DNA from: Pseudarthrobacter sp. NBSH8
GTDB taxonomy: Bacteria > Actinomycetota > Actinomycetes > Actinomycetales > Micrococcaceae
Direction of reading: 5' to 3'
DNA length: 64,000 nt
Assembly: GCF_014217545.1 (NCBI RefSeq)
Contig: NZ_CP043178.1
Location: 1,054,001 to 1,118,000 of the forward strand
The notes beneath the pieces are model-generated. The model was not told where the DNA came from. It did no database searches and was given only the letters and a program-made list of their open reading frames with translations. The position numbers were made by a program, and so were the translations under genes. Positions 1 to 4,061 of the stretch are shown piece by piece; position 1 is the first letter of the stretch, and the number at the start of each line of letters is the position of its first letter.

Positions 1-1255
1 CCCGGTTGGCGTCGAACTGCACGCGGTCCGCCGGGGCCTGGAGGCCAAGATCGGCCGCAGCTTCGGCGTACTTCTCAAAGCGGACCCGCTGCGACCGGGA
101 CTCCTCGCCCAGCCGCGCAGCCTCGGCCTCGATGGCCGCCAGCCTGCCGCCGCCGTTGCTGCGGATATCTTCCTTGACCGCAGCCAGGTCGAGGCGGAGC
201 TGGGTGATTTCGGTGGCCAGTTTGCCGCTGTCCTCCTGCAGCCGCAAGCCGGTGTTCCGCAGTTCCGCCTGGTGCTCGATGCTCAGCTGCAGCTTCTGGT
301 CCGTGAACCACGGGTGCAGCTGGTCCCGCTGTTGGCGGGCGAATTCATCGTCCCGGCTCAGGGCGGCATGTTGGGCCGCGCCCTCGGTGATGGGGGTGAG
401 CAGCCAGATCTGGTCTTTGGCACGGAGGACGGCGTCGTGGGCCTTCTTCAGGTCGTCGAAGTGGTGGATGAGGTTGCCGATCCGGGCCTCGACGTCGTCT
501 TCCTCGAGCATGTTGGTGCGCACAAAGTTGGTGATGTTCTCCACTTGCTTCATGGACACCGTGCGGTGGAACAGCTCCATGGCCTGGTTGCCGCTGATGC
601 CGAACTGCCGCTTGAACGCCGCCGCGTATGGCTCGAAGGTTTCATGGATGGACGCCCCGGCAGCCCGGAGCTGTTTCTTCAGCTTCGCGGGGTCCTGGCC
701 GAAATTGCCGAAGTCTCCGGCGATGGACTGCTCGCCCTCCACCAGCGAGTAGAAGCGGTTGGGCTGGCCGGCTTCCTGGGTGGCCCAGAGGGTGATGGCC
801 AGCGTGATGGATTTGCCCAGGACGGCGTTGTGGAAGACGCCGAGGACCACCGTGAGCTTACCGGTGCCGCGCAGGGCAACGGGCTTCGAGTATTCGCCGC
901 CGGCGCTCCGGGTGCTCTTGTGGAAGCCCCGCACATAGGACATCAGGGTGCGTTCCTTCTTCTGTGCACCCGCGGCCTTGTTGTATTCGATCCTGTTGGC
1001 CGGCAGCAGCAGGGTGGTAATGGCATCCACCACTGTCGACTTCCCGGAGCCGATGTCGCCGGTGAGCAGGCTGTTGGACCCGTCAAGCCGGAAGGTGCGC
1101 ACTTCCTGATGGAAGGTGCCCCAGTTGAGCAGCTCCAGTCGGTGCAGCCGGAAGCCCGGGGGAGTACCGGCGTCGTCCGCTTTTTCGTCCAGGCTGAACA
1201 GCATCTCCTGCTGGTCCGTCCCGTCACTGACTGCTGCCGCCGTCCCGGTGGTCAT
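1..1255 (-). CDS. jetC: Wadjet SMC-like ATPase JetC, partial (N-terminal part)
   Basis: This is the N-terminal ~418 residues of a large SbcC/MukB-like SMC ATPase; the rest lies beyond the left edge. The start ATG overlaps the jetB stop in an ATGA. A Walker A motif, GDIGSGKST, sits near residue 70 and is preceded by a typical strand reading LELLNWGTFH. From about residue 290 the sequence becomes Glu/Gln/Arg/Leu-rich, which fits the start of a long coiled-coil arm. In type I Wadjet systems JetC dimerises, binds DNA with JetA and JetB, and extrudes loops using ATP so that the JetD nuclease can cut small circular plasmids. JetD is expected just outside the window. The assignment rests on the P-loop plus the JetA and JetB neighbours; alone it could be called a generic SbcC-like ATPase. 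Confidence 0.9.
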   Translation of the reverse strand, partial: MTTGTAAAVSDGTDQQEMLFSLDEKADDAGTPPGFRLHRLELLNWGTFHQEVRTFRLDGSNSLLTGDIGSGKSTVVDAITTLLLPANRIEYNKAAGAQKKERTLMSYVRGFHKSTRSAGGEYSKPVALRGTGKLTVVLGVFHNAVLGKSITLAITLWATQEAGQPNRFYSLVEGEQSIAGDFGNFGQDPAKLKKQLRAAGASIHETFEPYAAAFKRQFGISGNQAMELFHRTVSMKQVENITNFVRTNMLEEDDVEARIGNLIHHFDDLKKAHDAVLRAKDQIWLLTPITEGAAQHAALSRDDEFARQQRDQLHPWFTDQKLQLSIEHQAELRNTGLRLQEDSGKLATEITQLRLDLAAVKEDIRSNGGGRLAAIEAEAARLGEESRSQRVRFEKYAEAAADLGLQAPADRVQFDANR

Positions 1256-1869
1256 GCGCTGTCCTCTTCCTTTGTGCTGGTGCCGCTGAGCGAGGCGCGG
1301 TAGTCGGCCAGCCGCGCCTCGAATTCCTCCAGCCACTGGGCATCCACATAGGCCTTCAGGATCCGTGCTACCTCGTACGTCCCCGCCTGGCCGCGCAGTT
1401 TCCGCAGGAAGCCCAGCTCCACCACTTTCTTGATGTTGGTGCCGAGCTGGTCCAGGATCCGCGCCTCGTTGCTCGATTCGGGCAGGAAAACGGCCACCAT
1501 GTCCGCGATGTCCTGATCCGTCATGATGAGGCGCAGTTCGCTGCTGTTGGTGTCGAATTCGAGCATCCGGCCGCGGAGCAGCGCCAGGAGGAGGCTGACG
1601 TTGAAGGTGAGCGGGCGCCGGGGGATCAGCCGCGGCAGCGTGCCGTCCGGATCCTCGCGCGATTTGAGGAACGCGTATCCCTCGGATTCGTCCAGGATGA
1701 GGTCAAGGCCCAGGACGGCCACATAGTCGCGGACGTGGGAGGACAGGACCAGCAGCGACTGCCAGACCTTTTCGTCGGCCTCGGCGTACACCACGCCTTT
1801 GAAAAGCTTCGTGACGACGCCGGGAAGTTCCCCGGGCGTGTGTGTTTCCGGTGCGTCTGTGGTGGTCAT
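1252..1869 (-). CDS. jetB: Wadjet protein JetB (DUF4194, MksE/MukE-like)
   Basis: This 205-residue protein has the DUF4194 pattern, with a segment reading FLKSREDPDG followed by RLIPRRPLTF and a winged-helix-like stretch that includes LGTNIKKVVELGFLRKL. In the family it is the KITE-type subunit that bridges the JetA kleisin and the JetC ATPase, equivalent to MukE/MksE. The length is normal for JetB. Its start ATG overlaps the jetA stop by 4 nt and its stop overlaps the jetC start by 4 nt, so the three genes are probably co-translated in fixed ratio. No damage is visible. Confidence 0.92.
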   Translation of the reverse strand: MTTTDAPETHTPGELPGVVTKLFKGVVYAEADEKVWQSLLVLSSHVRDYVAVLGLDLILDESEGYAFLKSREDPDGTLPRLIPRRPLTFNVSLLLALLRGRMLEFDTNSSELRLIMTDQDIADMVAVFLPESSNEARILDQLGTNIKKVVELGFLRKLRGQAGTYEVARILKAYVDAQWLEEFEARLADYRASLSGTSTKEEDSA

Positions 1870-3308
1870 GCGGGCCTCACGAAGATGATCTGTTCGACGG
1901 TGGCTTCCCGGATGCTGCCGTCCGGGAGCTGCCAGGACAACTGCTGTGACTCGTCCGGGTTGATGGAGGCCCAGTCCGATTCGGTGGCCAACTGGTAGTA
2001 GGCGACGATTTCGGCCAGCCCCTGGGAGAGCGGATGTGCGGATGCTACTTCGCCGAGCGTGGCCTGTTCGGTGCCGGCCAGGACGTCGTCAATGTTGGAC
2101 TTGAGCCGCTCCGTGTCCACATGGAACTGGCTGAAGAGGGCGCCGGCGTCGACTTCAGCATCATTTGCAGCCACGACGACGTCGTCCACCATGATCCGCC
2201 GGCTCGGCTCATACAGCGGCCGCTCAAAAGGCAGTGCCACATCCACAGACTGCGCGGCGATCTCCATAAAGACGCCCGACGGCGGCACCTCCCGGGTGCC
2301 CAGCGCGCCGGATTCGATGCTCCGGACGAGCTGCATGATGCGCTTGTTCTCCAGGAACACCTTGTCATCGAGGAGCCGGCGCATCTGCTGCGAGAGCTGG
2401 CGGACTGTGGCCTGGGTCTGCTCGACGGCGGGCAGCCAGTCCTGGTGCAGGTTGGTCACGGCGTGCAGATTGTCCAGTTTGGCGAGGGCGTCGATCCGGG
2501 TGGCCCGGTGAAGCAAGTCCCGCAGTTCGGTACGGAGCTGCGGGGACATCAGGTAGTCCCAGAAGCCCTGGAACGTGCGGCCCTGGAGCGAGCCGCTGAT
2601 GTCCTGTTGGTTGGCGAAGATGGAGGCCAGCAGCTCGCCCTGGGAGCCGTCCCACGTGGCGATCTGTTCGCGGACCTGGCGGTCAAGCTTCCGGAAGTTC
2701 TGCTCTACCTCCCGGAAATCGGAGAGCAGGTCCTTGGCCAGGGTGGTCAGCTGCTGGAAATGGTCCAGAGCTTCGGGTCCGGTCATTACCCGGATGTTGC
2801 CGTCCTTGATCCGTTGCATCTCGGCGTCGATCCCGTCCCGCTGGCGCTGGAGCTCGGCGAGCCTTACCTCCGGGTCGGTTTCGGACTGCTGGACCAGGGC
2901 CTTCAGGACGGCGAAAATGCTGGTCAGCCTGGACTGGGTGGCCACGAAGTCCCGGCCGCTCAGGCTCTCCACCCAGCGGACTACGTCCTCGGCGGCGGCC
3001 GTGAGATCGTAGCGCGGCTCGTCCTGGCCCGGGATGTAGTATTTTCGCAGCCACGCGCGTTCCGGGGCAGCCCACTCGTCCAGATATTCCCCGGCCGGGC
3101 GGGGGTATTTGTCTTCGCCGAAGACTTCGCGGAGGCCGAACAGGACATCATCGAGGTGGTCGATGAGTTCTTGCCGGCCGATGTCCCGTTGGTTGGGCCC
3201 GGTGAAGGCTTTGATGAAGAAACTCACGGCCAGCGGGGCGTTCTGAGCGCGGAGCAGAGACCACCCCGCGTGGTTCTCGCGCAGTGCGTTGATGGCGTAG
3301 AAATCCAT
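1866..3308 (-). CDS. jetA: Wadjet protein JetA (DUF3375, kleisin-like)
   Basis: This 480-residue protein matches the DUF3375/JetA family in length and in its N-terminus (MDFYAINALRENHAGWSLLR). A long central helical section around residues 180-310 is rich in Gln, Glu and Arg. JetA is the kleisin of the Wadjet condensin-like complex, related to MukF/MksF, and it joins the two JetC heads and recruits JetB. It is the first gene of the operon. The ATG at 3308 has a GAGGA ribosome-binding site 4 nt upstream. A possible promoter lies on the minus strand, with a TTGTCA-like box at 3356-3361 and a TAGAAA-like box at 3334-3339 spaced 16 bp apart. Confidence 0.93.
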   Translation of the reverse strand: MDFYAINALRENHAGWSLLRAQNAPLAVSFFIKAFTGPNQRDIGRQELIDHLDDVLFGLREVFGEDKYPRPAGEYLDEWAAPERAWLRKYYIPGQDEPRYDLTAAAEDVVRWVESLSGRDFVATQSRLTSIFAVLKALVQQSETDPEVRLAELQRQRDGIDAEMQRIKDGNIRVMTGPEALDHFQQLTTLAKDLLSDFREVEQNFRKLDRQVREQIATWDGSQGELLASIFANQQDISGSLQGRTFQGFWDYLMSPQLRTELRDLLHRATRIDALAKLDNLHAVTNLHQDWLPAVEQTQATVRQLSQQMRRLLDDKVFLENKRIMQLVRSIESGALGTREVPPSGVFMEIAAQSVDVALPFERPLYEPSRRIMVDDVVVAANDAEVDAGALFSQFHVDTERLKSNIDDVLAGTEQATLGEVASAHPLSQGLAEIVAYYQLATESDWASINPDESQQLSWQLPDGSIREATVEQIIFVRPA

Positions 3309-3629
3309 GGTGTCCTCGGTGCGGGGGCTGTTGTTTCTAAGCTACACGGGGGCGGTGACAATTTCCGTGGAGGGCATCCGGGCAAGGCAAGTTTTGCATC
3401 GTCGGAGGCCTGAATCCCCGCACTTTGGCGGCTTCCGCGAGCCCCGACGTTGCAAATGCACCGCAGGTAGGTGTCCGGACGGGGGCAAGGGCCGCCGATG
3501 AGACAGTGTGAACCTCTTTCAACGGCTGGCGGTTGTGCGGATGTTCGAAGGGCCGGGTCTTAGCATTGGACGTATGAAGGGACATATGAAGGTCGATCAA
3601 GTCCACGGACGCCCAGGGCGGAAACTGCA
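3309..3629. other. intergenic region upstream of jetA with an inverted repeat
   Basis: This 321-bp gap separates the Wadjet operon from the rightward DUF309 gene. It should hold the promoters of both. It also contains an imperfect inverted repeat, TTGCATCGTCGG at 3394-3405 against CCGACGTTGCAA at 3444-3455 (11 of 12 pairs), with a 38-nt spacer. No convincing coding region is seen. Confidence 0.6.
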
Positions 3630-4061
3630 ATGACCGGTGACAGGGACCGGGATGCTTCAAGGCGCCCCCGGCAGGCCCGGCCACGTGACGCTCTTGGGCG
3701 GCCGTTGCCGTACGGAAGCGCTGGCGTCGAGCCGGTCTCGGAGGAGCCGCTGCCACCGGCGCAGACGTTGGTCTCGGCCCGGAGTCTGGTGGACGCTGGC
3801 CGGCCTTTCGCCGCCCACGAGGTACTCGAGGCCCGCTGGAAGGCTGGGCCGGCCGAAGAACGCAACCTTTGGCAAGGTCTCGCCCAGATCTGCGTCGGGC
3901 TTACCCACGCCGCTCGGGGGAACAGCGTTGGCGGGCACCGGCTCTTCGAGCGCGGTGCGGCCCGCCTCGAGGAGTACGGTTCCGGCGACGGGCCGGCCTA
4001 CGGGCTCGACTTGTCCGCCGTTGTGAGTTGCGCACGTGATCGGATGCGCACCGGCCGCTGA
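3630..4061 (+). CDS. DUF309 domain protein
   Basis: This 143-residue protein carries the DUF309 signature, with AAHEVLEARWK followed by RNLWQGLAQ and then GLTHAARGN and LFERGAARL. The family folds as a small helical bundle and has no established biochemical role. The first ~45 residues are Arg/Pro-rich and not conserved in the family, so a later start is possible. The gene stands alone, transcribed away from the Wadjet operon, and its 3' end faces a dehydrogenase remnant on the other strand. Confidence 0.8.
   Translation: MTGDRDRDASRRPRQARPRDALGRPLPYGSAGVEPVSEEPLPPAQTLVSARSLVDAGRPFAAHEVLEARWKAGPAEERNLWQGLAQICVGLTHAARGNSVGGHRLFERGAARLEEYGSGDGPAYGLDLSAVVSCARDRMRTGR

Follow-up and report, generated by a model that had tools for sequence, protein, structure and literature searches.

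The chromosome of Pseudarthrobacter sp. NBSH8, an Arthrobacter/Pseudarthrobacter relative, very probably carries a complete and intact type I Wadjet (JetABCD/MksFEBG) operon. The window, i.e., the stretch of 64,000 nucleotides under analysis, corresponds to positions 1054001-1118000 of the single contig of the 4.06 Mb genome (G000:C1). It cuts the operon at its left edge, so we read on into the adjoining chromosomal stretch (L002) and found the four genes on the minus strand, in the order A-B-C-D, with overlaps of 4, 4 and 8 nt. The features are listed below in window positions, negative numbers lying to the left of position 1.

1866..3308, minus strand: jetA, kleisin subunit, 480 aa, DUF3375 (PADLOC JetA1 5e-197; Pfam DUF3375 9.8e-135)
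1252..1869, minus strand: jetB, KITE (MukE-like) subunit, 205 aa, DUF4194, without N-terminal extension (PADLOC JetB1 1.2e-91; Pfam DUF4194 1.3e-40)
1..1255, minus strand: first 418 of the 1140 codons of jetC, SMC-like ATPase; the gene runs to -2167 (PADLOC JetC1, E 0; Pfam)
-2160 to -3419 (L002:11840-10581), minus strand, outside the window: jetD, 419 aa, GTG start (PADLOC JetD1 1.9e-132; Pfam)
1866..1869, minus strand: ATGA overlap of the jetA stop and jetB start (sequence)
1252..1255, minus strand: ATGA overlap of the jetB stop and jetC start (sequence)
1034..1060, minus strand: JetC Walker A GDIGSGKST, residues 66-74 (sequence)
1184..1210, minus strand: JetC N-terminal motif QEMLFSLDE, residues 16-24, conserved in the lineage (sequence, relatives compared)
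3308..3370, minus strand: leader directly upstream of jetA (blastn)

Operon anatomy

An earlier note on the window had read jetA, jetB and jetC in this order, with 4-nt ATGA overlaps and an intact JetC P-loop, and both junctions and the P-loop are indeed found at the positions above. It had placed jetD beyond position 1, within about 5 kb, and had expected there the C-terminal, Walker B-bearing part of JetC and a jetC free of frameshifts. These expectations were borne out: jetC stays open without internal stop to a TAA at L002:11833 (window -2167), giving 1140 aa with Walker A, SGGQ signature and Walker B all present, and a gene with DUF3322 and JetD_C begins ~2.2 kb beyond the left edge and has 8 nt in common with jetC (GTGCCTAA). 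On the chromosome, the SbcC_Walker_B domain spans C1:1051998-1052288 and DUF3322 spans C1:1051268-1051804 (the window starts at C1:1054001).

The gene overlaps suggest coupled translation of the jet genes. Such overlaps are usual in the lineage: among 67 loci of named relatives (Arthrobacter, Pseudarthrobacter, Paenarthrobacter, Specibacter and Paeniglutamicibacter), the jetA/jetB junction is ATGA in 58, GTGA or TTGA in 7 and other in 2, and the jetB/jetC junction is ATGA in 40, GTGA in 19 and other in 8. A simple scan of window 3200-3750 for promoters of sigma-70 types found none. Over 53-63 bp, the leader is 81-85% alike to the spacer that separates jetA from a toxin-antitoxin pair in two relatives. 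Of 26 in-genus loci examined, 10 (e.g., L032:4920-5575, L098:4908-5563) have such a pair, a Phd/YefM antitoxin with a PIN toxin, immediately before jetA and co-oriented with it; the 18 loci from outside the genus all lack it. The window has no such pair either, and of this arrangement it keeps just the jetA-side leader. A DUF309 gene (window 3630-4061), present in 9 of 37 genus genomes, diverges from jetA and has a 96% identical second copy at C1:1753214-1753639. Defence models gave no match to six neighbouring or relative genes.

Protein identity and catalytic residues

The earlier note's assignment to type I Wadjet is supported by the profiles, PADLOC type I models being the best matches for all four proteins. 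The coverage is near full length, and the E-values listed above exclude a chance match of the operon. All the Jet models matched at E up to 1e-3 were JetA1, JetB1, JetC1 or JetD1, in a PADLOC library whose content in type II and III models was left unchecked. Pfam assigned DUF3375 to JetA, DUF4194 (and MksE) to JetB, AAA_29 and SbcC_Walker_B to JetC, and DUF3322 and JetD_C to JetD, the last two domains each occurring once in the NBSH8 genome, in this jetD. NCBIfam had no match for any of the four.

The solved systems (8dk2, 8as8) have the same four subunits as the window operon and are distant from it in sequence. JetC matches them nearly end to end (1.4e-53 for 8dk2, with residues 35-1129 on 31-1100; 6.2e-51 for 8as8, with 33-1136 on 11-1089). 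In JetD, the C-terminal half and the catalytic positions align. The window JetB aligns to PDB JetB only from residue 41-44 of that chain (weakly, E 0.0099-0.013), i.e., by this weak alignment it misses some 33-37 N-terminal residues of solved JetB. The window JetC carries LFS near its N-terminus.

Among PDB relatives of JetD, which include JetD 8q72 and 7til, the best match is MksG (8b7f, 3.9e-19) of Corynebacterium glutamicum MksBEFG, which has been called a Wadjet type I system (PMC10123090); the comparison covers MksG alone, and the metal-binding residues are common to both proteins. By the PDB-match alignment and spacing, the counterparts of JetD E286 and D329 are MksG E236 and D279, and those of E402/E404 are E349/E351. 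In MksG, the former pair is described as Mg-binding, alanine mutants having drastically impaired nuclease activity, and the latter is discussed as alternative nucleophiles (PMC10123090). Together with D331, these four JetD residues are invariant in an alignment of 21 JetD. The JetC positions G66, K72, S73, S1023-G1025, D1067 and E1068 (Walker A, signature and Walker B) are likewise invariant in 30 aligned JetC. An AlphaFold2 model of JetC from a close relative (P0001, 32 sequences) was uninformative (mean pLDDT 55.7, head and N-terminus below 50).

Distribution of the operon and a second operon lacking jetD

At least 71 of 206 genus genomes have a match to jetC at 68% identity or more, and DUF3322 is present in 82 of 206. 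In an order-wide sample, JetC was matched with E no higher than 1e-130 in 24 of 396 genomes, including NBSH8 and four others of its genus. The neighbours of the operon vary among genomes. In NBSH8, G083 (L033) and G015 (L098), it lies beside a cold-shock gene and a second copy of ctaD; in G016 (L091) and G021 (L093), the same site keeps both anchor genes and has no operon. These five genomes were hand-chosen. In several other genomes, the operon and the second ctaD copy are far apart. The patchy presence at this site and across the genus marks the type I operon as accessory, which is what one would expect of a defence system.

Some genomes carry two type I jet operons, or one and remnants, within ~20-25 kb (L045, L046 (G032:C165), L039/L040 (G185) and G167:C5), and G032 has three DUF3322 matches in 21 kb. 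A JetA relative (80%) is encoded on a 1.35 Mb Arthrobacter replicon recorded as a plasmid (NZ_AP024648.1), and of 72,556 plasmid records, 8 contain JetA relatives (E up to 1e-20).

NBSH8 itself encodes a second jetABC operon (L031:12314-6557, i.e., G000:C1:3874557-3880314). It resembles the window operon in having DUF3375, DUF4194 and SMC-like ATPase genes, overlapping and in the same order; it differs in that its JetC is ~28% identical and no DUF3322 or JetD_C is present, a periplasmic-binding-protein gene standing in the place of jetD. The PADLOC type I models that recognise the window operon also match this one, so that by model search alone it would pass for a Wadjet. JetC homologues (E up to 1e-50) are present in 200 of 206 genus genomes, and the remaining six also lack DUF3322, so that in 118 of 206 a JetC homologue is present without any DUF3322 gene; the JetD-less operon itself was read in three genomes (L031, L069, L070). 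The idea of a JetABC without JetD is not new, as it already figures in a review (PMC10586767).

The second operon bears on whether the window operon might instead encode a chromosome-organising Mks condensin. JetABC are MukFEB relatives, and an operon of this kind, matched by the same type I models, does exist without jetD in this very genome (L031:6557-12314). Yet MksBEF is defined by having no nuclease subunit, and the window operon has a jetD with its nuclease residues; it is also patchy in the genus, against 200 of 206 for JetC homologues taken together. We thus regard a condensin role for the window operon as highly improbable.

Type I operons do decay in the genus: among the 71 genomes with a jetC match, 65 have it in one piece over at least 968 of 1140 residues, and 6 (G030, G036, G123, G183, G028, G168) have it only split or partial. 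That the NBSH8 operon is such an inactive remnant is nevertheless hardly credible, given that all four frames are open, full length against the models and intact in their catalytic motifs; the earlier note, to which the visible part of the locus had seemed complete and undamaged, was right on this point. Broken or split jet genes were seen in jetC of G030 (L049) and in jetD of G179 (L062) and G184 (L065).

The N-terminal tails of JetB and JetC

The proteins of the window lineage have distinctive N-termini. JetB starts directly with the KITE domain, and the IFDR-type N-terminal extension is absent from the window JetB by sequence, PDB alignment and motif table. JetC starts with Q-x-x-L-F-S-L-[D/E], at position 6 to 16 from the start codon and with variable flanks. 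Among the best 120 of 3582 matches, 118 have it; the two exceptions begin MLFSLDE and MFSLDE, which suggests that their starts were annotated too late. The motif is found in 66 of the 67 named loci, the exception (L127) encoding it in another frame than the head. Across 19 stretches from other genera and families, 14 have LF[S/T/P] near the JetC start, 4 are without it and 1 is truncated.

The other type I lineages that we read, and the JetD-less operon, have [FW]x[GDS]DxG in JetB before the KITE domain, and their JetC is without LFS. Within NBSH8, the JetB of the JetD-less operon keeps an N-terminal LFxGDTG and its JetC has no LFS, whereas the window pair is the reverse. Under the strict pattern, this JetB motif is present in 119 of the 120 relatives listed for that JetB, the last differing only at the final position; absence of jetD was not confirmed for each of these 120.

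We tabulated 56 operons, using motif patterns written after the sequences were seen, and dropped three (L045, L047, L078) whose JetC was unpaired or incomplete. In the 53 assessable operons, the JetB motif alone occurs in 12 (9 with jetD, 3 without), the JetC motif alone in 37, neither in 4 and both in 0. On a tree of 55 JetC, the motif labels need only 3 changes, approximately one switch and two losses; this is a quick tree with flagged long branches, on which L045, L047 and L078 were labelled by default (the motif was seen for L045 and L078 only). So few changes point to one evolutionary event, not many, behind the difference in tails.

For another type I system, the JetB N-terminus has been reported to contact JetD through IFDR (PMC10586767), and as that region is missing here, recruitment of JetD may differ in this lineage. 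This leads to a bold reading, in which a tag that recruits or activates JetD would have moved in this actinobacterial lineage from the JetB N-terminus ([FW]xGDxG lost) to that of JetC (LFSxx[DE] gained), and the JetD-less JetABC of the same genus, with its JetB tail, would be a natural control for what that tail does. We consider this reading possible though rather doubtful. Two observations argue against it: the JetB motif is retained in the JetD-less operon, and the 4 operons with neither motif all have jetD. A PDB search with two other JetB proteins, run to place IFDR, found no JetB.

That retention (in the same 119 of 120 relatives listed) also speaks against the JetB motif as a dock for JetD: either JetD is not all that this tail serves, or the tail is used by a different partner.

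The JetC motif might alternatively be a putative site for the replication sliding clamp, which would steer Wadjet to replicating DNA. QxxLF is the general clamp-binding consensus, its positions 1, 4 and 5 mattering most (PMC12309361), and the three residues kept in the 118 of 120 relatives listed and in 66 of 67 named loci are precisely Q, L and F. Beyond close relatives the pattern breaks, however: all 3 motif-bearing loci from the same family have Q..LF, and none of the 11 from other families does, their core being LF[S/P] without Q. Because Q is confined to the host's own family, it is not what the wider lineage keeps, which weakens the clamp reading; we set it aside as very unlikely. In the portions of text that a literature search returned, no paper linked Wadjet with the sliding clamp (both terms were met in a haloarchaeal virus study), and nothing was found on JetC or Wadjet N-terminal or short linear motifs.

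Discussion

The window operon is an ordinary member of a known and frequent system, as 42% of actinobacterial genomes are reported to encode a Wadjet (PMC10482375). In published descriptions, type I JetABC forms a dimer whose two loop-extruding motors reel in DNA; on a small circle, extrusion reaches its end, and JetD is activated and cuts (PMC12647877, PMC10586767, PMC12287153). By analogy, JetC (SMC ATPase), JetA (kleisin) and JetB (KITE) of NBSH8 would form such a loop-extruding motor; on small circular DNA, extrusion would run to completion and the motors would stall, upon which the JetD nuclease (CAP and Toprim) would cut the circle. A size limit of ~50-100 kb is quoted for Wadjet, and in Clostridium cellulovorans, conjugation became more efficient by orders of magnitude once jetABCD had been deleted (PMC12287153). 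From this literature, loop extrusion, size sensing, cleavage and plasmid protection would be the expected activities of the NBSH8 system. Nothing in its anatomy (gene order, completeness, type I relationship, and intact ATPase and nuclease motifs) appears to contradict the extrusion-then-cleavage mechanism as described.

The step at which JetABC acts on JetD was called not yet elucidated in a 2023 review (PMC10586767), and the difference between the JetB and JetC tails offers a precise and testable guess as to how JetABC holds JetD or switches it on. This difference and the JetD-less sister operon are points of possible specialist interest, and the presence of JetD-bearing and JetD-less operons in one genome allows condensin and defence complexes to be compared inside a single genus. 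For the organism and its relatives, the locus is a candidate barrier to the transformation of Arthrobacter and its kin.
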